Source: Nitrospinota bacterium (lineage in GTDB: Bacteria; Nitrospinota; Nitrospinia; Nitrospinales; JACRGP01). Taken from it: a DNA stretch of 32,349 bases. Shown piece by piece: positions 9,321 through 31,333 of the stretch (its first letter is position 1; every line of letters starts with the position of its first letter). The stretch is from contig JACRGP010000171.1 of assembly GCA_016217765.1 (NCBI GenBank), positions 1-32,349 on the forward strand. The letters run 5' to 3'. The notes under the pieces are model-generated. The model ran no database searches. It worked only from the letters and a program-made list of their open reading frames with translations, and was not told the origin of the DNA. A program made the position numbers and the translations under genes.

Positions 9321-9331
9321 TCCCCGCCCCC

Positions 9332-9550
9332 AACGTGCCGTTGGATCCAATGGGCTTGACCCGGATGGCGAATAGGGGTCATCGAAGGCAATCGAGGCTT
9401 GGCCATTTCGCTCCGGGGCGTTCCCCGGACAACGTGCCGTTGGATCCAGCGCCGCCTCGCGCTGACGCCGAGGCGGGAATCGCGTTCCGGCGATCGCGGA
9501 GCCTCGTCGCCGCGTCGCCTCCGGGCGCTTGCCCGGTCAAGGGAGGGGAG
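9332..9550. repeat. 99-bp periodic repeat plus GC-rich core, overlapping the reductase 5' end
   Basis: AACGTGCCGTTGGATCCA occurs at 9332-9349 and again at 9431-9448, exactly 99 bases apart. The first unit aligns with the reverse complement of the 99-bp tandem unit at 32164-32349 (shared CCGGATGGCGAA, GTCATCG). From 9449 to 9535 the sequence is the reverse complement of the core inside 21854-21961 (GCTGACGCCGAGGCGGGAAT, CGCGTTCCGGCGATCGCG, GGGCGCTTGCCCGG). It ends in AAGGGAGGGGAGAA like the right side of the MITE-like element. The reductase reading frame emerges directly from it. Confidence 0.75.
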
Positions 9551-9551
9551 A

Positions 9552-10671: not shown

Positions 10672-10715
10672 ACCGGCGGGATGTGGGTCGGAGATTGGAA
10701 CCCTCTCCTATATTC

Positions 10716-10746
10716 TCCCCTCCCTTGATGGGAGGGGGCTGGGACA
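10716..10746. repeat. Fragment of the MITE-like element interior
   Basis: CCCCTCCCTTGATGGGAGGG followed by GGCTGGGACA is the reverse complement of the right interior of family 1 (CCCCCAGCCCCCTCCCTCAA). It forms a hairpin on its own. It lies between the reductase stop and the 3' end of rnpB. Confidence 0.6.
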
Positions 10747-10778
10747 GGAAAACCGATCAGGCGCCGCCGGAACCCCCG

Positions 10779-11167
10779 CGCCGAAGTAAACCTGTAAGCC
10801 GGGTTCTGTTCTCCATTTGCATGGAGCGGCGGTCATCAATCTAGGCCTGCCGTTGCCGGCAGGCTCAAGCGACCAACCCGAAAGCCTCGGACGAGCCGTC
10901 CTCGATTGCTTTCCTATTTGGTCTTGCTCCGGATAGGGCTTGCCAAGCTACCGCTGTCGCCAACGGTACTGGTGAGCTCTTACCTCGCCTTTTCACCTTT
11001 GCCGCCGGGACGGGAGACCCGCCCCGGGTTGGCCGTGTCTTTTCTGTGGCGCTTTCCTTGGGGTCGCCCCCACTCCCGGTTAGGGAGTATCCCGCTCTGT
11101 GGAGCCCGGACTTTCCTCTCCCCCCGGCCGCGGGCCGGGGACAGCGACCGCCCGGTTTACTTCGGCG
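10779..11167 (-). ncRNA. rnpB: RNase P RNA (bacterial type A)
   Basis: Read on the minus strand, the conserved 5' block GAGGAAAGTCCGGGCTCC is present at about 11101-11118. ACAGAAA follows near 11041, and the 3' block is AACCCGGCTTACAGGTTTAC. The ends pair perfectly: CGCCGAAGTAAACC at 11167-11154 pairs with GGTTTACTTCGGCG at 10792-10779, forming helix P1. That fixes a transcript of about 389 bases. The RNA is the catalytic subunit of RNase P, which removes tRNA 5' leaders. The P1 5' strand overlaps the last codons and stop (11157-11159) of the upstream zinc-ribbon gene, so rnpB is probably co-transcribed with it or has a promoter inside it. Long open frames on either strand across this interval are not genes. 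Confidence 0.97.
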
Positions 11168-11909
11168 CGGCGGTTTCGGTAACGGGTTCGGGGACCCAGT
11201 ACAGGAACCGGTTGCAATGGATGCACTCGAAAACCTTTTCGCCGCTTCTGATCTCTATGACCAACTGCGGAAGAATCTGCTGAAAACACCCCTGGCATAT
11301 GTGGCCCACGAGTCGCGCGACGGCATGGTCCCCCCTTAATTTTAAAACTTTTTCGTAGCGCTGGACCAGCTTGGGATCGGTCGAGCGGACAAGTTCGTCC
11401 CGCTTCCGGCGCGCCGCCTCCAGGTCTTTTTCGAGCCGGGATTTTTCCGCTTCCTTCCGGGACTTGTACTGGTTGAACTTTTTCTCTTCCTCCTGGTATT
11501 CCGCCTTGGAGCCGGGCAGTTCCTTTTCCCTGGACTCGAGCGTTTCCATCAGCTCCAGTTCCCGGTCCTCCAAGCCCGTTATTTTCCGTTCGATCGTTTC
11601 GACCTCCGCCAGGATGGCGGTATATTCCTTGTTGGTCTTCACGGAAGGGAGCTTCAGTTTCGTCTTGGACATATGATCGTTTTCGATCTTGACCTCTTGT
11701 TCCAACTGGCGGCTCCGGTTCTGGACCTCCTTGATCCGCGCGTCCGCGTCGTCGAGCTTCTTCCTCCTGGCCGCCAGGTCCGACTTCGCGGACTCGATCT
11801 GGACCGGGACCAGGGCGAGGCCTTTTTCCCAATTGGCGATTTCCGAATCGGTTTCCTGGAGCGCGATCAAGAACTGGAGTTGGGGGTTCATGGGGACGCT
11901 GTTTTGCAT
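11157..11909 (-). CDS. Coiled-coil protein with C4 zinc ribbon (COG1579 / CdsZ type)
   Basis: The 250-residue protein has a long charged coiled coil (about 20-185) and a C-terminal zinc ribbon with C205, C208, C229 and C232 (ICQGCFQQI, FECIHCNRF). It ends in a short disordered tail. This is the COG1579 family, for which nucleic-acid or protein-partner binding has been proposed. It is cytoplasmic, with no signal peptide. The ATG at 11909 has GGATGG about 10 bases upstream. An in-frame ATG at 11891 (MNPQLQFLIAL) also fits and lacks a clear ribosome binding site. The stop lies inside the P1 helix of rnpB, so processing of one transcript could affect the other. A good sigma-70-like promoter lies about 60 bases upstream. 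Confidence 0.9.
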   Translation of the reverse strand: MQNSVPMNPQLQFLIALQETDSEIANWEKGLALVPVQIESAKSDLAARRKKLDDADARIKEVQNRSRQLEQEVKIENDHMSKTKLKLPSVKTNKEYTAILAEVETIERKITGLEDRELELMETLESREKELPGSKAEYQEEEKKFNQYKSRKEAEKSRLEKDLEAARRKRDELVRSTDPKLVQRYEKVLKLRGDHAVARLVGHICQGCFQQILPQLVIEIRSGEKVFECIHCNRFLYWVPEPVTETAAPK

Positions 11910-11967
11910 TTAGTCCATCCAAGCGCGGATTTTGCGCTGTTTAGGGGGAATTTTCATCCGTACACAA

Positions 11968-11996
11968 AATGTAGCATGCCGCCGGTTTGATTGCAA
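11968..11996 (-). promoter_or_regulatory. Candidate promoter for the zinc-ribbon gene (and possibly rnpB)
   Basis: On the minus strand TTGCAA (11996-11991, 4 of 6) and TACATT (11973-11968, 4 of 6) are spaced 17 bases. The -10 is about 58 bases upstream of the ATG. Downstream genes read in the same direction. Confidence 0.45.
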
Positions 11997-12046
11997 ACCT
12001 CAAAATCCCCGCGGCCGGCGGCGTAAGTTGGGCCGGTAGTTTTTAA

Positions 12047-12202
12047 GAGCGTCTAACAAAATGAAGTATTCCATAACTTCCTCCCCCTTGACGGGGGAGG
12101 CCAGGTGGGGGTGAAAAGCCAGCCCACCCTCCCCCAGCCCCCTCCCGCAAGGGAGGGGAGCAGGTATGGGGTCAGACCATCAGTTCATTTTGTTAGACGC
12201 TC
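12047..12202. repeat. MITE-like element, short form (156 bp) with 19-bp terminal inverted repeats
   Basis: The left end GAGCGTCTAACAAAATGAA (12047-12065) is the exact reverse complement of the right end at 12184-12202. Both flanks are TAA (12044-12046 and 12203-12205), consistent with a 3-bp target duplication. There is no reading frame inside. The interior has CTCCCCCTTGACGGGGGAGG and CTCCCGCAAGGGAGGGG hairpins but lacks the roughly 104-bp GC-rich core of the long form. With the candidate promoter and the secF terminator, this accounts for the 336 bases between the zinc-ribbon gene and secF. Confidence 0.9.
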
Positions 12203-12214
12203 TAAGGGGAATGC

Positions 12215-12244
12215 AAAAAGGCCCGGAGGGACGGCCCCCGGACC
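12215..12244 (-). terminator. Intrinsic terminator of the yajC-secD-secF operon
   Basis: Directly after the secF stop, on the minus strand, GGTCCGGGGG pairs with CCTCCGGGCC (10 pairs, two of them G-T) around the loop CCGTC. TTTTT follows. This is a textbook Rho-independent terminator. The MITE-like element starts 12 bases beyond it. Confidence 0.88.
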
Positions 12245-12245
12245 G

Positions 12246-13154
12246 TCAGGCCCGTTTGAAGGAGAGCGACTTGTTTTCCCAGAAAAGGACGCAAACGCTG
12301 GCGATAAAGATGGAGGAATACGTGCCCACGAAGATGCCCACCAGCAGGCTGAAGGCGAAGCCGTGGATGATCTCGCCGCCGAAGAAATAGAGGGCGATGA
12401 CCACCAGCAGGGTGCAACCGGAGGTCAGGATGGTCCGGCTCAGCGTCTGGTTGACGCTGGCGTTGATGACGTCGAACAATGAGGTTTTGCTTTCCCGGCG
12501 CGCGTTTTCGCGGACCCGGTCGTAGACGACGATGGTGTCGTTGAGGGAATACCCTATGAGGGTCAGGAACCCCGCCACCACGACCAGGTCGAACTCCATA
12601 TTGAGCAGGGAAAACGCTCCCAGCGTGATAATCACGTCGTGAACGGTGGCGATGATGGCCCCGACGGCGTAACGGAGTTCGAACCTCCAGGCAATATAAA
12701 CGAGTATCCCGATGAGGGAATAAAATATGGAAAGGAGGGCCTTCATGCGCAGGTCCTTGCCCACTTTCGGGCCGACAATTTCCACGCGGTCGACAACGAT
12801 GTCTTTCACGCCCAAGGCTTGTTCGAGGCCGTTCTTGATGCGCGATCCCACGTCCTCGAGCTTTTCCTCCGACTTCTGGACGCGGATCAGGATTTCGCTC
12901 CTGGAACCGAATTCCTGTATGGCGCTGTCGCCGAGCCCCAGGTTTTTCAAGCCGTCGCGCACGTGGTCCAGGGACGGCGGCTCCTTGAACTTCAACTGCA
13001 CCAGGGTCCCGCCCGCGAAATCGATGCCGTATTTGAGCCCCCCGCGGAAAACGACCGATAATATGCCGATGAGGATCAGGGCCCCGGAAAAAATCAGGGC
13101 CAGCCGGGCCCTTCCCATGAAATCGATGGTCGTCCTTTGCTTGAAGAATTCCAT
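12246..13154 (-). CDS. secF: Protein translocase subunit SecF
   Basis: The 302-residue inner-membrane protein has an N-terminal membrane segment (17-36). The signature GIDFAGGT is at 43-50, a periplasmic domain spans about 55-135, and five membrane segments follow. The conserved GYSLNDTIVVYDRVREN is at 201-217 with the charged D206. With SecD it uses the proton gradient to pull proteins out of the SecYEG channel on the periplasmic side. The ATG is one base after the secD stop, so the two are translationally coupled. An intrinsic terminator follows the stop. Length and all signatures are normal. Confidence 0.97.
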   Translation of the reverse strand: MEFFKQRTTIDFMGRARLALIFSGALILIGILSVVFRGGLKYGIDFAGGTLVQLKFKEPPSLDHVRDGLKNLGLGDSAIQEFGSRSEILIRVQKSEEKLEDVGSRIKNGLEQALGVKDIVVDRVEIVGPKVGKDLRMKALLSIFYSLIGILVYIAWRFELRYAVGAIIATVHDVIITLGAFSLLNMEFDLVVVAGFLTLIGYSLNDTIVVYDRVRENARRESKTSLFDVINASVNQTLSRTILTSGCTLLVVIALYFFGGEIIHGFAFSLLVGIFVGTYSSIFIASVCVLFWENKSLSFKRA

Positions 13155-13155
13155 G

Positions 13156-14709
13156 TCAGATGCTCAACCGATCCAGTTTCTTGCGGCCCAGCGCCAGGTC
13201 GAAAATGACCCGGCAGGCAAAAACCGCCGTGAACATGCTCGCCACAAGGCCGATGCACAGGGTGATGGCAAATCCCTTGATGGGCCCCGTCCCGAACTGA
13301 AACAGGACGACGGCGGCGATCAAGGTCGTGATGTTGGAGTCCAGAATCGTCGTGAACGCCTTGTCGTACCCCGCCTCCACCGCCGCGCGGACCGTCTTCC
13401 CGATCCGGAGTTCCTCGCGGATGCGTTCGTAGATCAAAACGTTGGCGTCGATGGCCATGCCCACGGTCAGGATGATGCCGGCGATGCCGGGCAGGGTCAA
13501 GGAAGCCTTGAAATAGGCCAGGGACCCCATCAACAAAATGACGTTCAGCACGAGAGCCAGGACCGCCACCAGACCGGAAAGCCGGTAATAGACGATGATG
13601 AAACTGAACAGCAGGACGCACGCGATGATCGCGGAGAAAACGCCCTTTTCGATGGAATCTCTCCCAAGAGAGGGCCCAACGGTCCTGTTTTCCAGGATCA
13701 CCACGGGGGCCGGAAGCGCCCCCGCCCGCAGGACGATCGCCAGGTCGTGCGCCTCGTCGGTCGTGAAATGTCCGGTGATCTGCGCCCGCCCGCCGGCGAT
13801 CTCGTCCTGGATCACCGGCGCGGAATACACGTTGTTGTCCAGGATGATCGCCAGACGCTTGCCGACGTTCTCCTTGGTCGTCTGGTGGAAGACCATGGCG
13901 CCCACGCTGTTGAACGCGATGGCGACATAAGGCTGGCCGAATTCCGAGTCGAAGCGCACCTCGGCGTTGGTCAAGGTTTCGCCGGTCAGAATGGTCCGCC
14001 TTTTCAAAAGAAACGGTTGCTTGGAGGATTCGCCGGTCTCCTTGTCCACTTGCCGCTGATGCAATATCTCGTCGCCTTCGGGGAGGTTCCCGGCCAAGGC
14101 GTCCTGGACGCTACGCTGGTCGTCCACCAGTTTGAACTCCAGGCGCGCCGTCTTGCCGATGAGGTTGACCGCCCGCTCGGGATCCTTGACTCCCGGCAAC
14201 TGGACGAGGATTCTCCGTTTGCCTTGCACTTGGATGGTGGGCTCGGTCACGCCAAACTGGTCCACGCGGTTGCGAATGGTTTCCAATCCCTGATGGACGG
14301 CGTTTTCCTCGATCCGCTGGACTTCGCTTTTATCCAGATTGAAGGTGAGTTCCGCCCCCGATTCGGCGACCTCCCCTTTTTTAAGGTAGGGATAACCTTT
14401 TAAAATCTTATCTACTTGGGCGGCGTCAACGGCGTCCGCGAGCGTCACCCGGACCCGCGAACCCTCCAAATGGGCGGAGACGGACTCCACTTCGATATCT
14501 TCGTCCTGGATCGCCCGTTTGATGTCGTCGGCTATCCGCTCCAGACTGGCTTCGACGGCTTTGTCCGCCTGGACTTCGAGGACCAGGTGCATACCGCCTT
14601 GCAGGTCGAGCCCCAGGGCGATTTTTTCGTTCAACGGGTAGGCCAGCCAGGTCGACCCTGAAACCACCGCTACGATCAAGGGAATTTTCCACCGCAGACT
14701 TTTGAGCAT
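13156..14709 (-). CDS. secD: Protein translocase subunit SecD
   Basis: The 517-residue inner-membrane protein has a first membrane segment at 9-26, GLDLQGGMHL at 33-42, a long periplasmic P1 region (about 45-330), and a C-terminal bundle of five segments. GMAIDANVLIYERIREE contains D421, the residue equivalent to the functional aspartate of the family. It forms a complex with SecF and YajC and assists late steps of Sec-dependent export. It lies between yajC (15-base gap) and secF (1-base gap). The length is a little below that of E. coli SecD but usual for many other phyla. Confidence 0.97.
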   Translation of the reverse strand: MLKSLRWKIPLIVAVVSGSTWLAYPLNEKIALGLDLQGGMHLVLEVQADKAVEASLERIADDIKRAIQDEDIEVESVSAHLEGSRVRVTLADAVDAAQVDKILKGYPYLKKGEVAESGAELTFNLDKSEVQRIEENAVHQGLETIRNRVDQFGVTEPTIQVQGKRRILVQLPGVKDPERAVNLIGKTARLEFKLVDDQRSVQDALAGNLPEGDEILHQRQVDKETGESSKQPFLLKRRTILTGETLTNAEVRFDSEFGQPYVAIAFNSVGAMVFHQTTKENVGKRLAIILDNNVYSAPVIQDEIAGGRAQITGHFTTDEAHDLAIVLRAGALPAPVVILENRTVGPSLGRDSIEKGVFSAIIACVLLFSFIIVYYRLSGLVAVLALVLNVILLMGSLAYFKASLTLPGIAGIILTVGMAIDANVLIYERIREELRIGKTVRAAVEAGYDKAFTTILDSNITTLIAAVVLFQFGTGPIKGFAITLCIGLVASMFTAVFACRVIFDLALGRKKLDRLSI

Positions 14710-14724
14710 ATTCTTGTCGTCTCT

Positions 14725-15054
14725 TTATTCCTTGGAAGGCTCGCTTTTCGTCACGCCTATGGACGACCGGTTGATCTTGATCCGGACGTTATCGGCTATC
14801 TGCAGGGTGACGATATCGTCTTTGACTTTACGGATGGTACCATGAATACCGCTCAAGGTAACCACGTTATCCCCTTCCTTCAACGCGTCGAGCAGTTTGC
14901 GCTGTTCCGCCTGTTTTTTCCGTTGCGGCCTGATCAAGATGAAATAAAAGATCAGGAACATCATGATCATCGGCGGGAGCAGGGCCAGCAGACTGTTGCC
15001 CCCCGCTTCGCCCCCCCCCTGTGGAGGGGCCATGGCATAAACTGAATCAAGCAT
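14725..15054 (-). CDS. yajC: Preprotein translocase subunit YajC
   Basis: The 109-residue protein has one membrane segment (LLPPMIMMFLIFYFILIRP), the family signature RPQRKKQAEQRKLL, and a small beta domain containing GDNVVTLSGIHGTI. It is the accessory subunit of SecDF. The ATG at 15054 is supported by AAAGGAT about 8 bases upstream. It is the first gene of the operon, with a candidate promoter about 65 bases upstream of the start. Confidence 0.95.
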   Translation of the reverse strand: MLDSVYAMAPPQGGGEAGGNSLLALLPPMIMMFLIFYFILIRPQRKKQAEQRKLLDALKEGDNVVTLSGIHGTIRKVKDDIVTLQIADNVRIKINRSSIGVTKSEPSKE

Positions 15055-15118
15055 GTTCCGATCCTTTAACTATCCGGAGATGAAGCCGTATCCTGAGATG
15101 GGAAAAAGCAAAAGGATG

Positions 15119-15147
15119 CTTCTATCAAATCCATCGATATTTGTCAA
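15119..15147 (-). promoter_or_regulatory. Candidate sigma-70 promoter of yajC-secD-secF
   Basis: On the minus strand a perfect -35 TTGACA (15147-15142) and TAGAAG (15124-15119, 4 of 6) are spaced 17 bases. They lie upstream of the first gene of the operon in otherwise AT-rich DNA. Confidence 0.55.
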
Positions 15148-15239
15148 ACTCTAAAAAATTCCGGGATTAACCCCCAACCCGCCGTTTTGATGGATTTTCA
15201 AACGGGAGCGGCCGTTTTTCCATGAACCGGACAGGCCGA

Positions 15240-15803
15240 TCAATAAAATTTATCCGGCAGAGAACTTTCGCCGGTCAATTGCACGTAAAGGGCGTGAAAC
15301 TCCCCGGTGGTCAATTTCGGATCCATCAACCGCTTCAAGTTTTCCGGAGCGATGGGGATCTGCGATTTCTCGTCCCAGGCGGAGGTGGCTATGGCCGCAT
15401 AGTGCGGCGAGTTGAGGCGCTGGACGATGAGGTAATCGATCCGGTCGTTGTATTTCAGGGCCAGGTCGATGACCATGCGCGCGTCTTCCGCGCTCAAGCC
15501 GCTTCCCAAGGCGATATTGGCCGGCGGATGGCCTCCGCTCGGCTTCCAATATTGAATGGTGTTTCGCAACACCTTGATGTCCTTGGACTTGAGAAACCCC
15601 CGGATCTCCTTGTCCTGCTTTGACCGCTGGTGCGCCAACCAGATCTCGATGGTGCAGATGGTGGTCTGGGAATTGCCGCACGCGCTTTGAGCCGCGGGCC
15701 CCTCGCCGGATTTGGAAACCTTGGAAGGCTCGTCTCCGGACGCGGAAAAAGGACTCCCGATAAAAAAGAGTGCGGCAAGAAAACACAAAGCGATTTTTTT
15801 CAT
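15240..15803 (-). CDS. Small exported protein of unknown function
   Basis: GGAGGAG at 15822-15816, 12 bases before the ATG at 15803, sets the start; in-frame codons further upstream are not coding-like. The 187-residue product begins with a signal peptide (MKKIALCFLAALFFIGSPFS, cleavage probably near ASG-DEP), without a lipobox. The mature part is soluble. Two cysteines early on (SACGNSQTTICTIEIW) could form a disulfide in the periplasm. The rest is mostly helical (FLKSKDIKVLRNTIQYW, EDARMVIDLALKYNDRIDYL). I do not recognise the family. It stands alone, with its own good promoter and divergent from the permease gene. Confidence 0.8.
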   Translation of the reverse strand: MKKIALCFLAALFFIGSPFSASGDEPSKVSKSGEGPAAQSACGNSQTTICTIEIWLAHQRSKQDKEIRGFLKSKDIKVLRNTIQYWKPSGGHPPANIALGSGLSAEDARMVIDLALKYNDRIDYLIVQRLNSPHYAAIATSAWDEKSQIPIAPENLKRLMDPKLTTGEFHALYVQLTGESSLPDKFY

Positions 15804-16058: not shown

Positions 16059-18014
16059 ATGAAGAAAGTTCTGGACTGGCTTTTCGGACCGCCGCGCGAC
16101 CCGCTGAACCCCGAAACGCGTCAACACATCGCCCTGGTCGCCTTTTTCGCCTGGGTGGGGTTGGGGGCCGACGGCTTGTCCTCCTCCTGTTACGGTCCGG
16201 AAGAGGCTTTCCTCGCGCTGGGTCCGCACGCCCAGTTGGGCCTGTACCTGGCCCTGGCCACCGCGGTCACCGTCTTTATCATTTCCCTGGGCTACAACCA
16301 GATCATCGCCCTCTTCCCATCGGGCGGCGGCGGTTATAAAGTCGCGTCCAAACTGATCGGCCCGCGCGCCGGCCTGGTCTCCGGGGCCGCGTTGATCGTG
16401 GATTACGTCCTGACCATCGTCATATCCGTCGCCAGCGGCGTGGACGCCCTGTTCAGCCTCCTGCCGGTATCCGCGCAACCGCTGAAACTGGCGGCCGAGG
16501 TCCTCCTGATCCTGACCTTGATACTCCTCAACCTGCGCGGCATGAAGGAGTCGATCGCCGTCCTCATGCCCATCTTCCTTGGTTTCGTGTTCACTCACGG
16601 GTCCCTCATCCTATACGGCATCATGGCCCACTCCGACCGCATCCCGGAACTGGTCCCGGACACGTTGCGCGAAACGTTCCAGCTTTCCGGGCAAATAGGC
16701 TGGTTCTCCGTCGCCGCGCTCCTGTTGCGGGCCTACTCCCTGGGCGGCGGAACTTATACCGGGATAGAAGCGGTCTCCAACAACGTCAACACCCTGGCCG
16801 AACCGCGCGTCAAAACCGGCCGGTTGACGATGGTCTACATGGCCGCTTCCCTGGCCTTCACCGCCGGAGGGATCATCCTGTTATATCTCCTGTGGTCCTC
16901 CTCCCGCGTGGAAGGACAGACTCTGAACGCGGTGACGTTCCGCGCGATCATGCAGGACTGGCAATTGGGCGGTTTCAGCCCCGGACCCGCGATCCTGCCC
17001 GTTGTCATGGCGCTGGAGGGAGGCCTGTTGTTCGTCGCGGCCAACACGGGGTTTCTCGGCGGGCCGGCGGTATTGGCCAATATGGCGGCCGACCAATGGG
17101 CGCCGCACCAGTTCAGCTGCCTTTCCAGCCGCCTCGTCACCCAGAACGGCATCCTGCTGATGGGGGTCGCCGGGCTGGGTATCCTTGTCTGGAGCAACGG
17201 CAAAGTCTCCCTGCTGGTGGTCCTGTACAGCATCAACGTGTTTTTGACCTTTTCCCTGTCCCTGCTGGGGATGTGTATTTACTGGTGGCGCCACCGCCGA
17301 AGGGAGCCGGCCTGGCCCTGGAGGCTGGGCCTCGCCGCATCGGGATTCGCCTTGACCTCGGGAATCCTGACGGTCACCGTGGTCGAGAAATTCATGGAGG
17401 GCGGGTGGGTGACGCTCTCGATCACCAGCGCGCTCATCGTCCTCATGACGCTGATCAAGAGGCACTACAAAAAAACGGGGAAACGCCTCGCCGAGCTAGA
17501 CCGTCTTTTCGCCCAGTTGGAGACGCGGAGGGAAAAGACCCCGCCCAAATTGGACTCCGCGTTGCCGACGGCGGTGTTCATGGTGGGAAAGCACCTGAGC
17601 GCGGGCATGCATTCGCTACTCTGGGTCCAAAGACTCTTTCCGGGTCATTTCAAGAATTTCGTTTTCCTCAACGCGGGAGAGGTGGATAGCAAGAGTTTTG
17701 GCGGGGAGGAAGCCGTGGAGAAATTGAAAAAAGACGTGCAGACGCTGGTCGACTGTTACGTCAATTTCTGCCATAACAACGACCTGGCCGCCGCGTCTTA
17801 CCAGACTTTCGGCACGGACGCCATCGAGCAGTTGACCCTCATGGCCGACAGGATCAAGGAGGATTTCCCCAAAAGCATGTTTTTCGCCACCAAACTCCTA
17901 TTCGCCGAGGAAAACTGGCTCACGCGCCTCCTGCACAACCAGACCGCGATCGTCATGCAACGCCGCCTGCACTTGAAGGGGATGCCCATGGTCATCCTGC
18001 CCATGAAACTTTAA
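16059..18014 (+). CDS. APC-superfamily permease, KimA (YdaO)-like
   Basis: The 651-residue protein starts at the ATG with GGAAG 12 bases upstream; upstream in-frame codons look non-coding. About twelve membrane segments fill residues 25-480. The first part matches the KimA-type K+/H+ symporter layout: GADGLSSSCYGPEEAFLAL in place of the SDALSS-YA-EE motif, FPSGGGGYKVASKLIGPRAG, ALIVDYVLTIVISVASGVDA and LNLRGMKES. A cytoplasmic C-terminal domain of about 150 residues ends with RLLHNQTAIVMQRRLHLKG, also as in that group. It probably imports K+ or an amino acid with protons. In Bacillus, KimA is inhibited by c-di-AMP through this domain; whether that holds here cannot be told. The divergent neighbour gives no clue to substrate. 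Confidence 0.85.
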   Translation: MKKVLDWLFGPPRDPLNPETRQHIALVAFFAWVGLGADGLSSSCYGPEEAFLALGPHAQLGLYLALATAVTVFIISLGYNQIIALFPSGGGGYKVASKLIGPRAGLVSGAALIVDYVLTIVISVASGVDALFSLLPVSAQPLKLAAEVLLILTLILLNLRGMKESIAVLMPIFLGFVFTHGSLILYGIMAHSDRIPELVPDTLRETFQLSGQIGWFSVAALLLRAYSLGGGTYTGIEAVSNNVNTLAEPRVKTGRLTMVYMAASLAFTAGGIILLYLLWSSSRVEGQTLNAVTFRAIMQDWQLGGFSPGPAILPVVMALEGGLLFVAANTGFLGGPAVLANMAADQWAPHQFSCLSSRLVTQNGILLMGVAGLGILVWSNGKVSLLVVLYSINVFLTFSLSLLGMCIYWWRHRRREPAWPWRLGLAASGFALTSGILTVTVVEKFMEGGWVTLSITSALIVLMTLIKRHYKKTGKRLAELDRLFAQLETRREKTPPKLDSALPTAVFMVGKHLSAGMHSLLWVQRLFPGHFKNFVFLNAGEVDSKSFGGEEAVEKLKKDVQTLVDCYVNFCHNNDLAAASYQTFGTDAIEQLTLMADRIKEDFPKSMFFATKLLFAEENWLTRLLHNQTAIVMQRRLHLKGMPMVILPMKL

Positions 18015-18151
18015 CAGGGCGCTGGGAAAATCCCTTTTTGCCCCAAAATCGTCATGCCCGCGACAGCGGGCATCCAGAAAGCCCTTGAAAATACTGCCCG
18101 CTTTCGCGGGCATGACGGCAAAAGACCATAAAATAGTTTTTCAGCGCCCTG
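18015..18151. repeat. Inverted-repeat-ended element, family 2, copy A
   Basis: It begins with the base after the permease stop. The ends CAGGGCGCTG and CAGCGCCCTG are inverted repeats. The interior holds two GTCATGCCCGCG/GCGGGCAT-type hairpins and the marker AAGCCCTTGAAAATACTG. It aligns end to end with the reverse complement of copy B (22910-23049), so the two copies are in opposite orientation. There is no reading frame. GGGAAAATCCCTTTTT at its left end could serve as a terminator for the permease gene. Confidence 0.85.
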
Positions 18152-18209
18152 TGAAACTTGCCGCTCGGATTCCGCCGTCCCCTCTTTCCCCCGTCCCCGC
18201 CAACTCCGC

Positions 18210-21707: not shown

Positions 21708-21780
21708 GGTCTGCGGATACGGGGGCGGCGGATCATGCCCAATTATCGATGAACGGAGAACAAGGGTCAATAAACATTAA

Positions 21781-22040
21781 GAGCGTCTAACAAAATGAAG
21801 TATTCCATAACTTCCTCCCCTTGAAGGGGGAGGTCAGGTGGGGGTGAAAAGCCGGGCAAGCGCCCGGAGGCAACGCGGCGATGACGCTGACGCGATCGCC
21901 GGAACGCGATTCCCGCCTCGGCGTCAGCCTGAGGCGGTATCGGATCCAGCGTTCACGCTGGTCACCCTCCCCCAGCCCCCTCCCTCAAGGGAGGGGAGAA
22001 TTTGAGGGCCGAGCCAAATGGTTCATTTTGTTAGACGCTC
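21781..22040. repeat. MITE-like element, long form (260 bp) with 19-bp terminal inverted repeats
   Basis: The ends GAGCGTCTAACAAAATGAA (21781-21799) and TTCATTTTGTTAGACGCTC (22022-22040) are perfect inverted repeats, identical to those of the copy at 12047-12202. Both flanks are TAA (21778-21780, 22041-22043). After GTGAAAAGCC it carries an extra GC-rich core (about 21854-21961) missing from the short form and found alone elsewhere. There is no transposase. With the leader of the next gene, this accounts for the 464 bases between 21708 and 22171. Confidence 0.92.
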
Positions 22041-22171
22041 TAAGGACGGGGCCCCGCCGCCGGGCCGATTTGCAATTTGCGCGAGGCCGAAAGGTGGTAT
22101 AGACTGAATACAATCCAAACCGTCGCGCGACGGCCGCGAGTAACGTTTCGCCAATAAGAGAGAGACCCGAT

Positions 22172-22909: not shown

Positions 22910-23049
22910 CGGGGCGCTAAAAAACTATTTTATCCTCTTTTGCCGTCATTCCCGTGAAAACGGGAATCCAGTATTTTCAAGGGCTTTCTGGATGCCCGCT
23001 TTCGCGGGCATGACGATTTTAGGGCAAAAAGGGACTTTTTCGGCGCCCC
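22910..23049. repeat. Inverted-repeat-ended element, family 2, copy B, filling the gap between two convergent stops
   Basis: The ends GGGGCGCTAAAAAA and TTTTTTCGGCGCCCC are imperfect inverted repeats. Inside are two hairpins, ATTCCCGTGAAAACGGGAAT and TGCCCGCTTTCGCGGGCA, separated by CAGTATTTTCAAGGGCTTTC. It is the inverted counterpart of copy A. It starts right after one TAA (22907-22909) and ends one base before the other stop (23051-23053). The hairpins and flanking A/T runs make it a plausible two-way terminator. Confidence 0.85.
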
Positions 23050-23050
23050 A

Positions 23051-26000
23051 TTAACGGTAATCGCCGGTCAAATTGAACCCCGCCCAATAGCCCGGGTGGG
23101 GATATAGCCTCTTCACCAGCAACTGGGCCTTCCGCAAGCTCTCCGCCTTGTCCTCCTGGATGTAGTTCCGGTAAAAGTGTTTGATCAGGACCGCGGTGGA
23201 AATATCGCTGACCCGCCACAACGAGGAAATAATGGCGTGCGTCCCCGCGTAGATGAACGCCCGGTTGAGCCCCACCAACTCGTCCCCGCCGACGATCTCC
23301 CCCAACCCCGTCTGACAGGCGCTCAGCGTGACCAGGTCGGCGTTGATGTTCAGCGAAAACACCTCGCTCGCCTGGAAACTCCCGTCCTGCTCCAGATCGG
23401 GAGTCAGTTTGAGGGAGGAGAACAGCGGGTTCACGGGATCGAACTCCCCGTGCGAGGCGATATGGATGACCTGGTATTCGCCGATATGTTTATGCACCCA
23501 GCTTTCCGTGGCCTTGTCGCGGGTCAGGACGTCGATTTCCGGGAAATCCCACCGGATCGAATTGGCCTCCAACTCGGCCAGCGGTAAATCGTAATTGAAG
23601 TTCTTGAGGTCCGGATTGCCCAGGGCGAGCGCCTTGATCTTGCCCGTCTTCTCGAATTTGCGCTTGAAGGTGAACTTGAGGACGGAGGCGCTGGGCGTGT
23701 AAAAAATCGGCTTCTTCTCGATCAAGTACCCTTCGGCGTCCCTCAGGGACGCGAACGACACATAGTGCAACTGCCCGTGGGGAACGATGCCCAGGACCCG
23801 CTTGTCCTTGAAGTATTTCTCCGCCGGTTTGACGACCCATTCATATAACCTGGCGGATTGGTCCTCCGCGGGGGCCAGGCGCTGTATGCGCATGCGGTAA
23901 TCCTTGATCAGGGCGTTGAGGTCCGCTTCCTTGACCGGCGCGCGGACGACGTCGATTTTCCCGTTGACGACGATCCACGCCACCAATTCGTTTTCCGTCG
24001 TCAGGTACTCCACCAAAGCCAGATCGTCGCCCAGCAATCCATAAAGTTCCCGCAAGGTCAACGCATCGACGGTGACGAAGGCCGAGACCTCGGGGTTCTC
24101 GGACTTGACCTCGACCAGCAAATCCTGGTAGCGGTTGCGTTCGGCGACCAGTTGTTCCCTCATCTTCTTGACGCTCTCGTCGTCCCCGGACGCCTTGCCC
24201 AGGGACTCCTCCAAGGCGCGTATCGCTTGTTTCTGCTGGAGGAGTTTTTCGTAAGTCTTCTGGCTCGCGTCGTTTTTCAAACCGATCTTCTGGTTTCCCA
24301 GAAGGTCGATGAAACTCCGCGACTTGGCGCGCTCGGCGAAATTAAAGGATTCCTCCACCTTCCCCTGGTCGAGCAGGAGCAGGACCAACTCCTTGTACAC
24401 GTCCTGCTTGTCGGCGAGGAACCCGTTCTGGAACTCCTCCACCTTGATGGCGGCGCGCATCCGGTCCACCGCCTCCGCGGCCTTCTTATAGGCGTCGAGG
24501 GCCTCCTCGGGGCGTTTCAACCGCGCCAGGCAGAACCCCTCGCCGCGATACGCCCGCCAGACGACCTCCTGAATACGCAGTCCCTCAGCCATCTTTCCGG
24601 TCTCCCGGAAAGCGGCGGCCGCCTTCTCGCAGTCCTTCCTCTCGATCGCCAGGTTGCCCATCTCCAGCATCGACTTGACGAGGTTGGTCTTGTTGCCGAT
24701 CTCCGAGCTGAGGGCGACGGCCTGCTTGATGTGTCCCTCCGCCTCGTCCAGACGGCCCATGCGCATGAAGCTCATGCCCAGGTTCCGATGGGTGTAGCCC
24801 TGGCCCCATTTGGACTTGAGCTGGACGTCCATCTCCAGGGCCTTTTGGAAATACTCGACCGATTCGGGATACTGCTTGTCCTTGCGGTAAACCAGCCCGA
24901 TGTTGTTGTAGGCCGTCGCCATGTCCAACGGCGAATGGATTTCCCCGGCCAGACTCAGGCCATGGTTCAAGTGGGTCAGGGCCCGCTTCGAATCGTTGAG
25001 CGTCCAATAGATCAACCCCAGCGTGTTGTAGACAAACGTCTGCTGGCGCTTGTCGCCGATGTCCTCGGCGATCTCCAGGGCCTGTTTTTGGAATTTGAAG
25101 GCGTTCTGATAGTCCCCCTGGTACCAATGGGAGTTCGCTTGATACAGGAGCGCCTTGCTCAATTCCAGTTTTAAGTTTTTGGACTCCGCGAGGGACTGCC
25201 CCTCCCGGTAGAATTTCAGGGCCTCGGCGAAATTGCCTTCTTTCTCGGCAACCAGCCCAAGCTCCAGGCCGGTCTCGACCGCTTGATCGGCCCGGTCGAG
25301 CTTTTTGAACAGTTCGTTCGCCTGGGCAAAATATTTCCGCGCCTCGCCGTAGGCGCTCAACCGCAAATAATAAATCCGCCCGATCCGGCGAAGCTCCCTT
25401 CCCCGGTTCAGGTCCTCCCCGGTCTCCTCGCTGATCTTCAGGGACGCGCGGAACGCGTCCAAGGCCTTGTCGTAATCCAGCGCGTTTTCCTCGACGATGC
25501 CGAGGGCGCTATAACTCTCCGCCAGTTTGTCCAGGGCCTCGTTCTTCTCGTATATGGCCAGAGCGGCTTTCAAATTCTCGGCGGCCTTCGGGTAATTCTC
25601 GGCGCGGGAATACAGGATGCCGAGGAAATAGATCGCCTCGGCATGTTCCTCCGGCTTGGCCTTGTTCTCCGTCAGTTTGACCAGCTCCCGTTGATACTGT
25701 ATGGCCTTCGGGTAATCCTCCTGGTTGTAAGCGGCCTGGGCCAGGACCTTGTATATTTTCGGGGCGGGTTTTTTGTCCTGCATCAGGTCCAGGAGGGCCA
25801 GCGCCTTTTCGAAATAACCGATGGCCAGGGGCCAGTCCCTGGCGATGAACGCCTTCCCGCCCTTTTCCACGTTGGCCTCGAAATGGGCCTTGGCGAACGC
25901 GTTTTTCTCGAACTCGTCCATCCCCGGAAACCCGTAAAACCGGTAGCCCGCCCACGCCAGCGAACCGGGGCGCTTCTTGCGGAGTTCCAACTGCGCCTGG

Positions 26001-27310
26001 CGGAGCGAGTCCGCGGGGTTGCCTTTCCTGAACCCGGAGTAAAACAGGTCGAGAAACTCCGCATGCTCGTTGGGATTCTTCGGCCCGAAATGGAGCAAGA
26101 TCCCGGGGAACCCCATGAAATCCAGGCCGTGGAGAAGCGGCGCGGCCGGCGAGACGTCCAGGCCGGGGTCGATCTCGTAATCCACGTCGTTCAAGGCGAT
26201 GAAATTCGCCTCCAGCGACCTGCCGTAAAGGTCCTCCAGCCTGGCGCGCTCGAACTGGTTACCGCGGTGGGTCACGCCGATATAGGAATTGAACGGGTCC
26301 AGACGCTCCAGAAACGTTTTGCTCTCCACGTCCGCCACGCCGTATTGCGCCAGGCCCGAGAGGAAACGCTCGGCGGTTCCCTCCTCCCCGGTCAGGTTGA
26401 CCGCCGAGGCGAAACGTCCGGCGGTCCGGGCGAACGGTTTGTCCGGGAATTCCGCGGCCAGGAAACGCGAGTTGTAAAGGTTCCTCCTTTTCTGGGAATT
26501 GTAAAACTGCGTCAGCGAGGAGGCGAATACGACCTTCAACTTTTCGGCGAGGACTTTCCCGTCCATGGTCATGGCGGGCCAGGGGAGAAACTCCAAGGGC
26601 CCTCCCGCGACGATGAAAATCGTCTTGGCGTTGGCCAGCGCCTCCTGGTGAGGCGACAAGAGATACTCGGACAAAATCCCCAGGTCGCGCGGTTGAGGCC
26701 GGGCTCCGGAACGGCCCAGCCGCTGTAAAACGTCGTACAAGGCCGGGTTGACGGGGATGCTCCCGCCGAGGACTTTCTTCCAGGTCACGGCCCACGTCAG
26801 GACATGGTCGTGCTCTCTCTGGAACTTGACGATCGCTTCCCCCGGCTTCAAGAATTTACGCACCGCGTCCAACGGCGGCGGTTCGGGGGAAAACAGGTTC
26901 GCCATGTCCTCGTCTTCCTGCCGGAGCGCCGCGATGAACTCCCCGTAATCGTCCAGAAGCTTGTCGAAATTCCCCCGCCGTTCCTCCGCCGTCCCCGGTC
27001 CGGGTTTTCCCCCATCGGCCAGGTCGCGCGCCAACCGGGCGTAATTGACGATCTCCTCGTAATATGCGGCCCGCTCCTTGTCATGGAATTTCAACCGCAG
27101 GTCCTGCCGGAAGGAGGCCAGCGCCCGCTGGAGCCCTTTCTCCGAGTAATACAAGGCCTCGCCGAATTGTTTCCGCTCGAACAACGAGCGCGTCAGGGAC
27201 AGGTAGAGTTCCTCCGCCATGGCCCGGTCCGCCGGGGTGGAAGGCAACAATCCGTAGGGGAGCCGCGACAGAAATTTTTCCGCGTTCAAGAGTATGGACG
27301 TCCGGTCCAT
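23051..27310 (-). CDS. Double-CHAT/TPR protein with active-site C-terminal caspase-like protease domain
   Basis: The 1419-residue product has four parts. A CHAT-like domain fills about 150-460 (VKFQREHDHVLTWAVTW, IFIVAGGPLEFLPWPAMTMD). It keeps a histidine (H348) but has V376 where the cysteine should be, so it is probably inactive. TPR units run from about 470 to 1050 with the usual W-LG-Y-A-A-F-P pattern (AYNNIGLVYRKDKQYPESVE). A short coiled coil follows. The C-terminal CHAT domain has H1287 (VIHIASHGEFD) and C1332 (LVTLSACQTGLGEIVGGDEL), the dyad of this clan CD peptidase group. CHAT proteases act in bacterial immunity and cell-death systems and in heterocyst control. No signal peptide follows the ATG, which abuts the upstream TAG in the same frame and lacks a good ribosome binding site. 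It may therefore be the second half of a split protein. The substrate is unknown; no gasdermin or Cas gene is near. Confidence 0.9.
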   Translation of the reverse strand: MDRTSILLNAEKFLSRLPYGLLPSTPADRAMAEELYLSLTRSLFERKQFGEALYYSEKGLQRALASFRQDLRLKFHDKERAAYYEEIVNYARLARDLADGGKPGPGTAEERRGNFDKLLDDYGEFIAALRQEDEDMANLFSPEPPPLDAVRKFLKPGEAIVKFQREHDHVLTWAVTWKKVLGGSIPVNPALYDVLQRLGRSGARPQPRDLGILSEYLLSPHQEALANAKTIFIVAGGPLEFLPWPAMTMDGKVLAEKLKVVFASSLTQFYNSQKRRNLYNSRFLAAEFPDKPFARTAGRFASAVNLTGEEGTAERFLSGLAQYGVADVESKTFLERLDPFNSYIGVTHRGNQFERARLEDLYGRSLEANFIALNDVDYEIDPGLDVSPAAPLLHGLDFMGFPGILLHFGPKNPNEHAEFLDLFYSGFRKGNPADSLRQAQLELRKKRPGSLAWAGYRFYGFPGMDEFEKNAFAKAHFEANVEKGGKAFIARDWPLAIGYFEKALALLDLMQDKKPAPKIYKVLAQAAYNQEDYPKAIQYQRELVKLTENKAKPEEHAEAIYFLGILYSRAENYPKAAENLKAALAIYEKNEALDKLAESYSALGIVEENALDYDKALDAFRASLKISEETGEDLNRGRELRRIGRIYYLRLSAYGEARKYFAQANELFKKLDRADQAVETGLELGLVAEKEGNFAEALKFYREGQSLAESKNLKLELSKALLYQANSHWYQGDYQNAFKFQKQALEIAEDIGDKRQQTFVYNTLGLIYWTLNDSKRALTHLNHGLSLAGEIHSPLDMATAYNNIGLVYRKDKQYPESVEYFQKALEMDVQLKSKWGQGYTHRNLGMSFMRMGRLDEAEGHIKQAVALSSEIGNKTNLVKSMLEMGNLAIERKDCEKAAAAFRETGKMAEGLRIQEVVWRAYRGEGFCLARLKRPEEALDAYKKAAEAVDRMRAAIKVEEFQNGFLADKQDVYKELVLLLLDQGKVEESFNFAERAKSRSFIDLLGNQKIGLKNDASQKTYEKLLQQKQAIRALEESLGKASGDDESVKKMREQLVAERNRYQDLLVEVKSENPEVSAFVTVDALTLRELYGLLGDDLALVEYLTTENELVAWIVVNGKIDVVRAPVKEADLNALIKDYRMRIQRLAPAEDQSARLYEWVVKPAEKYFKDKRVLGIVPHGQLHYVSFASLRDAEGYLIEKKPIFYTPSASVLKFTFKRKFEKTGKIKALALGNPDLKNFNYDLPLAELEANSIRWDFPEIDVLTRDKATESWVHKHIGEYQVIHIASHGEFDPVNPLFSSLKLTPDLEQDGSFQASEVFSLNINADLVTLSACQTGLGEIVGGDELVGLNRAFIYAGTHAIISSLWRVSDISTAVLIKHFYRNYIQEDKAESLRKAQLLVKRLYPHPGYWAGFNLTGDYR

Positions 27311-30300
27311 CTACTCGGCCTGCAGGGAATCGAGGTATTCGAACTGCCATGCGAACCGGAGCAGTTCGTCCTCCGTGGGGAGCAGTCCAGCTTCCTCCTT
27401 GTCCTTTGCCTTCGCGCCCATCAACCGGCCGGTCAGTTCGAGGTTCTGCTTGAGGGCGGTCTCCATCTCGCGGAGCGGCGCGCCCTTGAAATCGGCGCGG
27501 GCGGAGGCCAGGGCCCCCTCGAAATAACGGCGCGATTCCTTCAGGTACCCGTACTCCTTGGCCATCCCCTCGGAAGCGGCCCGGTATATGGACTTCAACC
27601 GCTCGGGATCGGCGCCCGCCTCGGCCTTGCTCCGGCCGGGGGCCGTGAAACGCAACGCCAGATAATGATAGACGATGCCGAGATAGTTTTTCAGATACAC
27701 TTCGTATTCCGGGTGGCCCAGGACTTTTGCCCGCTGGACCGTCCCAACCGCCTCCTCGAGCAAGAGGCGGACGCTTTCCGCCTCGTCGCGCAGTTTGTTC
27801 AGCGGGACGAACTCGCACTTGACCAGGAAAACGCGCGCCACGTTCGCCGCGTTGACCGCGGTCCCCTGCCGGTTCTCCAACTGGACGCTCAGCTTGTACG
27901 ATTGCCGGAAGGACTCCTCTGCCCGGTCGTAATCCCCCGATCGATAATGGTAATAGCCGATCTGGTTGAGGATGATCGCCTTTTCGAGAACGTCGCCGAC
28001 GCTCTTTTTCGGGTCTGGCCTGGCCGGCAGGAGGGCCAGCTTTTTCTGGTAATACTCGATGGCCTTGTGGTATTCGCCCACGTCCCCATATATCCTGCCG
28101 ATATAATTGAAGATCAGCTTCCGTTCGCCCGTCTTGTCGAACCCCTCGGCGGCCTGGGTGGAGTCCGGGCCCGCGCCCACCTCGACATTGACGTCGATCA
28201 ACGCCGTTTTTTCCTTCTCCATTTCCTTTCGGGCGACGCCGAATTTTTCCAGGTTCTCGATGGCCTGGAAATAATTGCCCAGCGCCAGCCCCAGGGATTT
28301 CGCGTCCTGACTCTCTTTTTTCCGGTTCAGGTCATACAGGTTGTTGGCGATGTTACGCAGGGCCCGCGCCAGGGAAACGGTATTGCCGGTCCGCCGGTGC
28401 AGGTCGAGCGTCTTGGAAAAATACTCGACGGCCTTGGCGAAGCGCCCGCCGTCCTGATACGCCAGGGCGATGCGGTCGTTAAGCTCCGCCATGCGCTTGA
28501 GGTCGTCCGTCCCGGAAACCAGCTTGAGGGCCTTCTTGTAAAGCTCCGCGGCCTCGTCGGCGAATCCCGACTTGAACGCGCTCTCGCCGTACCGCTGGTA
28601 ATAGATGGCGTCGCGGACGGGATCGAGCGGCGTATCGCCGCGGATAGCTCCGCCTCGCGCTTGCGCCGAGGCGGCATCGCCCGCGGGCGTTTGCCCGGAG
28701 CCTCTTCCCCGGTCCCTCTCCCTGTAGAAATGATAGGCGGGGAAATAATTTTTCAACAGGTAATGCCCGTTCCCGAGGTTCAGGAGCAGGTCCAGCCGGT
28801 TATCCGGGTTGTTCCGGTTGTCGTTGAGCGCCAGGGCGATCTGATATTCATGCAGGGAGCGTTCCAGGTATCCGGCGTTTTTTTTCAGCCGTTCCTTTTG
28901 CTCGTAAATCCATCCGAGCGTCTGATGGAAATACGCTTCCTGCGAGTTCAGCGTCAGGGCCTGCGCGATCTCGCTCTCCGCCGCGTCCAGGGCCGGAGGG
29001 TCCAGGTAGGTATAGGCCAGGCCCAGGGCGTAATGGTCCGCGGCCGATTTGCCGTTGGCCGCCAGCCGCGTTTTGTAGAACGGGAGGACCTGATCGATTT
29101 TTTTAAGGGCGGCGTGCCCCTGGACGTATCCCCGATGGGCCTCGACGGTTTCGGGGTACGATTCGATCAGCTTGAGATACGTTTTGACGGCCAGCTTGAC
29201 CTCGCCGACCTTGAGTTCCCATTTCCCTTTCGCCAAGGTTTTGCGGACATACCCTTCCCTGGCCAGCAGAAGGTCCTCCTCGAACCCCTTGGAGGTTTCC
29301 GCAATCCGCCTATAGTAGTTGAGGCTCATCTCCCAGTTTTCCTCTTCCGCGAAAATCCTGGCGAGGGCGAATTGCGCCGCGAACTTTTCCCGCGCCTCCT
29401 CCGGGAACTGGTCGACGGTTTTCCGGTAAGCCTCCTTGGCCAGCAGGTCCTCGCTGGCCTGATAAAACAGCTCGCCGACCCGGTTCTGCGCGGCGGCGGA
29501 CAGCAGGGGGAGGGACTTGTACCGCTCGACGATGCCTTGCAGGTTCGAAACCTTTTTCTCCAGGCTCGGTTGTTTTTCGAACAACTCCAGGACTTCATGG
29601 ATGGCCTTTCGCGTCCACGACTCGACGTCGTAATAATCGCGGACCACTTGCACAAAAGCTTCCACCAACCGGTCGTGGTCGCCCACGGCCGAATAAATCC
29701 TGCTCCGCGAAAAAGCCGCTTCGGCGGCGATCGCCCTCTGGCCGGGGAACCCGGCGATGACCTTCTTGTAAAATCGCAGGGCCTTCTCCGGTTCCTCCAG
29801 CGCGAAATACAGGTGGCCCTTTTCCAGCGCGGCGCGGGCTACGACTCGCGGCTGGGCCGAATCGCGGGCGGCGATGCGGTCCAACGGCTCCAGGGCTTTC
29901 CGGCTCGTTTCCTTGTAGGCGGCCGGCCCCTCTTTCCGGGCGTCGGCGACGTCGAGCAGGAGGACCTCGATCTCCGCCAACCCCTTGTACACCGGGTCGT
30001 CCGGAAACTCCTTGAGGAGCTTGGAAAAGATTTCCCGCGCTTGTTCCGCGTGTCCCATGTCCTTGTAGCCGACGCCCGACCGGTAAAGGATGCGGGGCAG
30101 ACCCTTCTCGCCGGCAAACTCCAGCGTCACATTGCCGAGGGCCATCAGGCATCGATAGGAAATCCCGTCTTCCGGGCAAAGGCCTTCGGCCGTTTGCAGG
30201 GCTTTCCCGTATTCCTTGTCCTTGGGAACAAGCCCCTCGGCGGGGAGTTCCCATACGTCCACGCTCCCCTTGCGGTTGGAAACGAAATACAGGCTTTGGC

Positions 30301-31333
30301 CATGCAGGGCGGGCTGGAGGTCGTACGTGGAGCTGTCGGTCAATTGCCGGAACTTGCCAGGCCAGACCGGTTCGGCGTTTTGTTCCTCGCTATCCGCGGA
30401 GGCGGGGGGACTTTGCGGAGCGGGCGTCCCGGCGGCAGGTTTTTTTTCCGGAGGGAATTCCAGCCATTCGACCCTCCATATATTGGGGCGGTCGTCGATC
30501 GCGACCTGCCCGTCGAAATTTGTGTCGTCATGGTACCGCGCGAAATAGACCCATTTGCCGTCGGGCGACCAGCGGGGCGAAACGTCGATCGCCTTTCCGC
30601 TCGCGATCCGCCTCCGCGCGGAGCCTTTCAAATCGAGGACCCATAGCGCGTTCCCGCCGCCATTGGCGCCGGCAATATAAGCCAGATACCTCCCGTCCGG
30701 CGACACCGAGGGATTGACCCCTTCGGCAACGGCGTCCGGGTTTTTCGCCCGGGTTTTGACGTCGATCGAAAAAATTCTTTTCGGGCCGTCCCCGGCATCG
30801 TGGGAGGAAAAATAGATCGATTTTTGGTCGGGAGACCAAACGGGATCGGCGTCGGCGGTCGAGGCGTCGGTGAGGCGGACCAGGTTTTCCTCGGGACCGC
30901 TTCCGCGTTCGGGGCCTTCAGCCCGGGAGCGTCCCAAAAGGTCCGCGACTTTCGAGAGACCGAGGGGGAGCAGATAAATATCGCCGCGCGGGTCGGACCG
31001 GTTGGAGACAAAGGCGACCCATTCGCCGTCGGGACTGATGGCGGGGGAATTGTCCTCGGCGCCGTGAAACGTCAGTTGGCGGTCCGGGGGATGGGCCCCC
31101 GGCCCCAGTTCTTTCAACCACAAGTCGAGGTTGCCCGACCGGTCCGAAACGTAGACCAGGAATTTGCCGTCGGGCGAAACCGCGGGGGCGAAATCCTCGC
31201 CCGGATTGGCGGTGACTTGGACGGGCTCGGCGAATCGGACGGGTCCGGCCCACGCGTCCAGACGCGGCAAGAGCAGGAAACCGGAGAAAAGAAACGCCCC
31301 GATGGATTTCAGCTTTGTTCCCAGGATTCGCAT
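27311..31333 (-). CDS. Exported TolB-like (PD40) propeller plus TPR protein
   Basis: The ATG at 31333 (MRILGTKLKSIGAFLFSGFL) begins a clear signal peptide ending AWA-GP near residue 30; earlier in-frame ATGs would bury it. GGAG lies about 13 bases upstream. Residues 35-365 form about six PD40 blades (AVSPDGKFLVYVSDRSGNLD, AISPDGEWVAFVSNRSD, VWSPDQKSIYFSSHD, SVSPDGRYLAYIAG, RWSPDGKWVYFARY, ALHGQSLYFVSNRKG), as in TolB. A long TPR superhelix fills about 380-1310. Around residues 875-907 a Gly/Ala/Arg-rich stretch (SGQTPAGDAASAQARGGA) derived from a dispersed repeat interrupts a TPR. The protein should be periplasmic, sensing or binding through the propeller. It ends in TAG directly before the CHAT ATG, in frame. 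Confidence 0.9.
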   Translation of the reverse strand: MRILGTKLKSIGAFLFSGFLLLPRLDAWAGPVRFAEPVQVTANPGEDFAPAVSPDGKFLVYVSDRSGNLDLWLKELGPGAHPPDRQLTFHGAEDNSPAISPDGEWVAFVSNRSDPRGDIYLLPLGLSKVADLLGRSRAEGPERGSGPEENLVRLTDASTADADPVWSPDQKSIYFSSHDAGDGPKRIFSIDVKTRAKNPDAVAEGVNPSVSPDGRYLAYIAGANGGGNALWVLDLKGSARRRIASGKAIDVSPRWSPDGKWVYFARYHDDTNFDGQVAIDDRPNIWRVEWLEFPPEKKPAAGTPAPQSPPASADSEEQNAEPVWPGKFRQLTDSSTYDLQPALHGQSLYFVSNRKGSVDVWELPAEGLVPKDKEYGKALQTAEGLCPEDGISYRCLMALGNVTLEFAGEKGLPRILYRSGVGYKDMGHAEQAREIFSKLLKEFPDDPVYKGLAEIEVLLLDVADARKEGPAAYKETSRKALEPLDRIAARDSAQPRVVARAALEKGHLYFALEEPEKALRFYKKVIAGFPGQRAIAAEAAFSRSRIYSAVGDHDRLVEAFVQVVRDYYDVESWTRKAIHEVLELFEKQPSLEKKVSNLQGIVERYKSLPLLSAAAQNRVGELFYQASEDLLAKEAYRKTVDQFPEEAREKFAAQFALARIFAEEENWEMSLNYYRRIAETSKGFEEDLLLAREGYVRKTLAKGKWELKVGEVKLAVKTYLKLIESYPETVEAHRGYVQGHAALKKIDQVLPFYKTRLAANGKSAADHYALGLAYTYLDPPALDAAESEIAQALTLNSQEAYFHQTLGWIYEQKERLKKNAGYLERSLHEYQIALALNDNRNNPDNRLDLLLNLGNGHYLLKNYFPAYHFYRERDRGRGSGQTPAGDAASAQARGGAIRGDTPLDPVRDAIYYQRYGESAFKSGFADEAAELYKKALKLVSGTDDLKRMAELNDRIALAYQDGGRFAKAVEYFSKTLDLHRRTGNTVSLARALRNIANNLYDLNRKKESQDAKSLGLALGNYFQAIENLEKFGVARKEMEKEKTALIDVNVEVGAGPDSTQAAEGFDKTGERKLIFNYIGRIYGDVGEYHKAIEYYQKKLALLPARPDPKKSVGDVLEKAIILNQIGYYHYRSGDYDRAEESFRQSYKLSVQLENRQGTAVNAANVARVFLVKCEFVPLNKLRDEAESVRLLLEEAVGTVQRAKVLGHPEYEVYLKNYLGIVYHYLALRFTAPGRSKAEAGADPERLKSIYRAASEGMAKEYGYLKESRRYFEGALASARADFKGAPLREMETALKQNLELTGRLMGAKAKDKEEAGLLPTEDELLRFAWQFEYLDSLQAE
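28645..28703. repeat. Dispersed GC-rich core repeat inserted in frame in the PD40-TPR gene
   Basis: CCGCCTCGCGCTTGCGCCGA GGCGG at 28650-28674 and CGGGCGTTTGCCCGGAG at 28685-28701 match the core at 9449-9535 (CCGCCTCGCGCTGACGCCGA, CGGGCGCTTGCCCGG) with few changes and a deletion between them. The reading frame stays open through it. Within the gene this is the only stretch rich in Gly, Ala and Arg. Confidence 0.65.

Follow-up and report, generated by a model that had tools for sequence, protein, structure and literature searches.

Two long open reading frames on the minus strand of a Nitrospinota contig adjoin without an intervening base, which raises the question of whether they are two genes or one. 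The window, i.e., the whole stretch of DNA that was analysed (32,349 nucleotides; contig C111), belongs to a fragmented metagenome-assembled genome (MAG) of 2.29 Mb in 200 contigs that is 71% complete. Frame A (PD40-TPR; minus strand, 27311-31333; 1,340 amino acids plus TAG) ends in GAG TAG, and frame B (TPR-CHAT; minus strand, 23051-27310; 1,419 amino acids plus a stop) starts with the next base after this TAG in the same frame, the junction reading ...CTG CAG GCC GAG TAG ATG GAC CGG ACG TCC.... A preliminary description of this DNA had proposed one frame split by a single TAG, B following A in frame, with PD40 and TPR domains in A and TPR and CHAT domains in B. Reading of the junction on the minus strand, a strand that the description had not named, agrees with the former, and Pfam matches agree with the latter.

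Comparison with relatives answers the question of gene number. Sixty relatives were searched for the B protein together with the open frame around it, and the phylum was then covered by a profile search. The junction is open in all 36 Nitrospinota relatives carrying an orthologue. The gene is whole as a single frame of 2,565-2,800 amino acids in 28 of these, seven orthologues run off a contig end with no stop met, and one (in genome G045) is broken by its own TAG elsewhere in the gene. Separate genes in relatives would have spoken against a fusion; the outcome was the opposite (36/36 fused), and a conserved two-gene arrangement is thus rejected. The two adjoining frames are therefore decisively supported as one gene, ancestrally single, and the proposal that one gene originally encoded a probably exported PD40 propeller-TPR-pseudoCHAT-TPR-CHAT giant is borne out. 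The same-genus relative is the groundwater Nitrospinota MAG JACQQK010000127. The break in G045 is an independent single-stop break, located in the first TPR array (L060, near reverse-strand position 8631, on a contig shared with L091).

The sister species (G001; about 97% DNA identity, B protein 98% identical) has GAG GAG ATG at the place of GAG TAG ATG in the window. The in-frame TAG (minus strand, 27311..27313) therefore reflects one G-to-T change or an assembly error, and the earlier suggestion of CAG as the ancestral codon is not supported. The ATG that follows (minus strand, 27308..27310) is an ordinary sense codon: Met is otherwise found at this position only in the sister species, and the residue varies in the other relatives.

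How should the TAG itself be understood? Recoding was considered, and an in-frame stop at the junction was sought in relatives as a sign of recoding or readthrough, with none found in 36. In counts made with a crude ORF picker, TAG ends about 25 of the 158 longest frames in a 237-kb sample of the genome and so is not rare there; of 32 frames in the loci examined, nearly all of them relatives' copies of the giant gene, 21 terminate in TAG. The preliminary description had counted only TAA (9) and TGA (12) at the other protein-coding genes of the window. TAG recoding is rejected, as TAG serves as an ordinary stop in the window genome and usually terminates those frames of relatives that were examined. 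A functional coupled pair in the window species, made by termination at the UAG and restart at the abutting AUG or by readthrough, would suit the abutment of the two codons, and abutting in-frame genes do exist in the same genome, where a TPR-CHAT gene and a CHASE2 gene are joined by TAA and ATG in an arrangement kept in the sister species. However, no relative has the arrangement seen in the window, the genome uses TAG as a normal stop, and the split would fall inside a TPR-CHAT module, leaving the CHAT half without a signal peptide. Coupling, which the preliminary description had entertained, is thus unsupported and very improbable, the ATG being a sense codon with Met shared by the sister species alone.

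The TPR-CHAT/CHASE2 pair differs from the A/B junction in that its second protein starts with its own membrane segment, whereas B starts inside helical repeats. This second TPR-CHAT protein (1,075 amino acids) is encoded at L061 (reverse-strand frames 9116-15400, contig C126) and L063, and abuts in frame a 691-amino-acid CHASE2-type protein with a cyclase-like C-terminus; a FecR-like frame follows the latter. This TPR-CHAT protein contains a lipobox-like LPSC and so is probably a lipoprotein.

Substitution patterns bear on the age of the stop. Between the window and the sister species, the B half has 53 synonymous and 27 nonsynonymous differences and the A half has 65 and 84, respectively; residue changes are even on the two branches, at 12 versus 11 in B and 28 versus 28 in A. 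This absence of decay behind the TAG indicates that the stop is either very recent or not real. If it is real and recent, the strain would make a truncated propeller-TPR protein, with the CHAT half lost or becoming a pseudogene. The otherwise clean frame, which has no second lesion, is consistent with this possibility, and loss of the giant is tolerated, as the gene carries a separate TAG in G045 and is missing from several Nitrospinota. Against inactivation, changes are not in excess in the B half on the window branch, although a recent stop would leave no trace. A real and recent stop is given a little less than an even chance. The other explanation is that the TAG arose as an error of assembly or sequencing, or reflects a minor allele, in the MAG, and that the organism makes the full protein. 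The fragmented and incomplete state of the MAG, the full frame kept in every relative and the undiminished selection on the B half favour an error, whereas the main other genes in the window appear intact, so that errors are not obviously frequent; this explanation, too, falls only a little short of an even prospect. Both are compatible with an intact gene in the family at large, and in either case the TAG is an ordinary nonsense change or an error and does not point to a novel way of expressing the gene.

The intact protein starts with a putative Sec-type signal peptide (residues 1-29, MRILG...LDAWA|GP, as read from the sequence; minus strand, 31247..31333). An AlphaFold2 model contains an N-terminal helix at residues 3-20, and relatives have hydrophobic N-termini of the same type. 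A TolB-like PD40 beta-propeller follows (residues ~36-365; minus strand, 30239..31228; Pfam PD40, E=3e-45); the model of residues 1-560 has a mean pLDDT of 84, and the best Foldseek matches of the propeller in the PDB are TolB structures (E about 6e-15, probability 1.00). Between the propeller and the first TPR array (residues ~400-1340; minus strand, 27314..30136; Pfam TPR families and helical repeats in models) lies the pair C386...C395, a candidate disulfide (minus strand, 30149..30178). Of the 30 aligned rows, 29 have both cysteines and the other is truncated. Each whole protein contains 3-9 cysteines, of which the C386/C395 pair and the catalytic Cys alone are conserved, and some orthologues have just these three in ~2,600 residues; the Cys content of other window proteins is 1.2%. 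Such a pattern would suit an exported protein in which one disulfide is combined with one reactive thiol and, together with the putative signal peptide, suggests that the giant is exported and periplasmic.

The region after the stop contains a second caspase-like fold. The middle domain (~residues 147-463 of the second frame; minus strand, 25922..26872) has no Pfam match by sequence, and a sequence profile of the junction region gave no meaningful relative in the PDB; matches were obtained by structure search alone. An AlphaFold2 model in which the TAG is read as Glu (pLDDT 87.5) runs from where the first TPR array ends, across the stop, to the middle domain, and in it the TAG codon forms the first residue of a confident helix within a continuous helical stretch (pLDDT near 89). 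The whole stretch across the stop matches Csx29/TPR-CHAT (E about 1e-12 to 1e-9) and separase in Foldseek, with modest whole-chain TM-scores to Csx29 (0.35-0.40). These matches assign a CHAT fold to the middle domain and, because they span the stop, indicate that the stop cuts through a TPR-CHAT module. In the 30-row alignment, this domain has no conserved catalytic His or Cys and retains the scaffold motifs LEFLPW, GYPGxLL, ESLRxAQ and YRxYGFPG. As judged from the models and the alignment, it is a catalytically dead CHAT fold, here called pseudo-CHAT.

A second TPR array (~residues 480-960 of the second frame; minus strand, 24431..25873; Pfam TPR_12, E=4e-48, and conservation) leads to the C-terminal, active-type CHAT domain (residues 1152-1417 of the second frame; minus strand, 23060..23857; Pfam CHAT, E=9e-67). 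This domain scores 225.9 bits against the CHAT family PF12770, well above the curated cut-off of 24, and is the best conserved part of the giant. The predicted catalytic His (minus strand, 23450..23452) and Cys (minus strand, 23315..23317) are H1287 and C1332 of the second frame, i.e., H2628 and C2673 in the fused count. The preliminary description had singled out both residues; they are present and invariant in the alignment, and the dyad is invariant in all sequences reaching it, including a 36%-identical protein of Planctomycetota and more distant homologues.

Comparable giants are also present beyond Nitrospinota. The Planctomycetota homologue (L093) is a single-frame giant of 2,834 amino acids with 36% identity, found in two of the nine genomes of its class; giant relatives are likewise present in 12 of the 39 genomes in the class of 'bacterium RI_26', with frames exceeding 2,500 amino acids in eight. 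L093 and a further homologue, L099, both contain PD40, TPR and CHAT with the dyad, and both lack the Cys pair; L099 gives no clear alignment over the pseudo-CHAT.

In Nitrospinota, the gene occupies a conserved chromosomal site, alone and divergent from nuoN, and the conserved genes downstream are DUF4159-like, VWA-like and aminotransferase genes (names read from sequence). Neither a substrate or ligand nor a conserved operon partner emerged from the analysis, and the gene seems to be solitary. Nitrospinota relatives without the gene retain the flanks, and several such relatives indicate that the giant is not essential. The site is essentially empty in one of them (G028, L135), and has unrelated genes in others. 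At the equivalent site, L130, L131, L132 and L138, which lack the giant, have a protein of 263-291 amino acids starting MKRVAIG or MKRVTIG that adjoins nuoN, and L133, which also lacks it, has a TonB-receptor-like gene. An origin from a defence island or mobile element was considered and is unlikely, given the conserved site beside nuoN and the retained flanks; comparison with the anti-phage families of PADLOC gave only generic TPR and weak partial matches. Dispersed palindromic intergenic repeats of about 90-270 bp occur in the window at 22915-23050 and also, e.g., at 18005-18160 and 21780-22045; the sister genome has dozens of copies. The contig end (32160-32349) is a near-exact tandem repeat of about 100 bp (GGGGCAAATTGCCTCCGGGCGCTTGCCCGGCCAGCGCGACGCTGGACTCGATA...).

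What is known of TPR-CHAT proteases concerns mainly intracellular sensing, as in Craspase, or their likeness to separase. In structure, the stretch across the stop is matched best by Csx29, the protease of the type III-E CRISPR system Craspase, which likewise consists of a TPR superhelix followed by a separase-like CHAT domain with a His-Cys dyad. Unlike Csx29, the giant is predicted to be exported, is about four times longer, and has a propeller and two TPR-CHAT units, the first of which is dead. It scores 50.6 bits against the NCBIfam Csx29 model NF041237 (cut-off 300), and no cas genes, including Cas7-11, were recognised among the listed frames of the window. Eukaryotic separase, also a structural match, shares a helical-repeat superhelix with a C-terminal caspase-like protease, but is intracellular and controlled by securin, whereas the giant is bacterial, probably exported, and has a TPR array between its dead and live domains. 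The transmembrane anti-sigma factor DdvA (PDB 8rot, 8rw5) matches the TPR/pseudo-CHAT stretch (E about 3e-10) and is thus a membrane protein with a related fold; it has a transmembrane segment, whereas in the giant a propeller is present and no anti-sigma part was recognised. TolB shares the propeller fold and export, the latter predicted for the giant, in which the propeller is fused to TPR and CHAT; the score of 119.4 bits against the TolB equivalog TIGR02800 (cut-off 343) is in line with likeness in propeller fold only. Pseudo-orthocaspases are likewise caspase-fold domains without the His-Cys dyad (PMC6426788), but these are of the p20 family rather than CHAT, and the dead domain of the giant shares a chain with an intact one.

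This anatomy suggests a mechanism. The Sec system would take the giant across the inner membrane, where the TolB-like propeller and the two TPR superhelices would together serve as a scaffold that binds a ligand or partner in the envelope. Ligand binding would reposition the C-terminal CHAT domain, and the His-Cys dyad would then cleave an envelope protein. Craspase offers a precedent, in which binding of target RNA narrows the His-Cys dyad of TPR-CHAT from ~7 to ~3 A (PMC9729208); by analogy, the giant would be an allosterically activated protease with a ligand and a substrate of its own. The dead CHAT would be a structural or regulatory domain, and it may act as a regulatory partner in the manner of cFLIP, an inactive caspase homologue, for caspase-8 (discussed in PMC6426788). 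From the order of domains, a periplasmic sensor-protease is the most likely function, and the periplasmic caspase-like sensor put forward in the preliminary description is plausible. Alternatively, the giant might be a non-catalytic envelope scaffold in which the CHAT dyad is kept for the fold rather than for proteolysis. In favour of a scaffold, most of the chain consists of repeats and the first of the two CHAT domains is dead already; however, invariance of the dyad in all sequences reaching it, distant homologues included, and the superior conservation of the CHAT domain argue against this alternative, and a pure scaffold is improbable. Taken as a whole, the explanation that the locus is the gene for one exported protein of ~2,750 residues (~300 kDa), interrupted here by a G-to-T stop, whose intact form is a sensor-protease, is judged to have somewhat better than an even chance.

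Automatic annotation would give two unrelated genes at this locus, and comparison restores one conserved giant. Searches of the literature on CHAT with PD40, the periplasm or Nitrospina found no report on the giant protein; its unbroken form is conserved and so far unstudied, and the intact protein merits biochemistry. More tentatively, the homologues may represent cross-phylum giant exported separase-like proteases, combining a TolB-type sensor propeller with dead and live TPR-CHAT modules in one chain and turning extracytoplasmic ligand detection into site-specific proteolysis, as a self-contained equivalent of Craspase in the periplasm or as a separase of the envelope; this broader proposal is a fair possibility that falls short of being probable. 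For Nitrospinota, best known for nitrite oxidation, the giant raises a clear question, namely what the propeller binds and what the CHAT domain cuts. If the proposed function is true, caspase-like regulation would reach into the bacterial envelope through a conserved exported TPR-CHAT protein that has a built-in propeller as sensor and a dead domain as partner.
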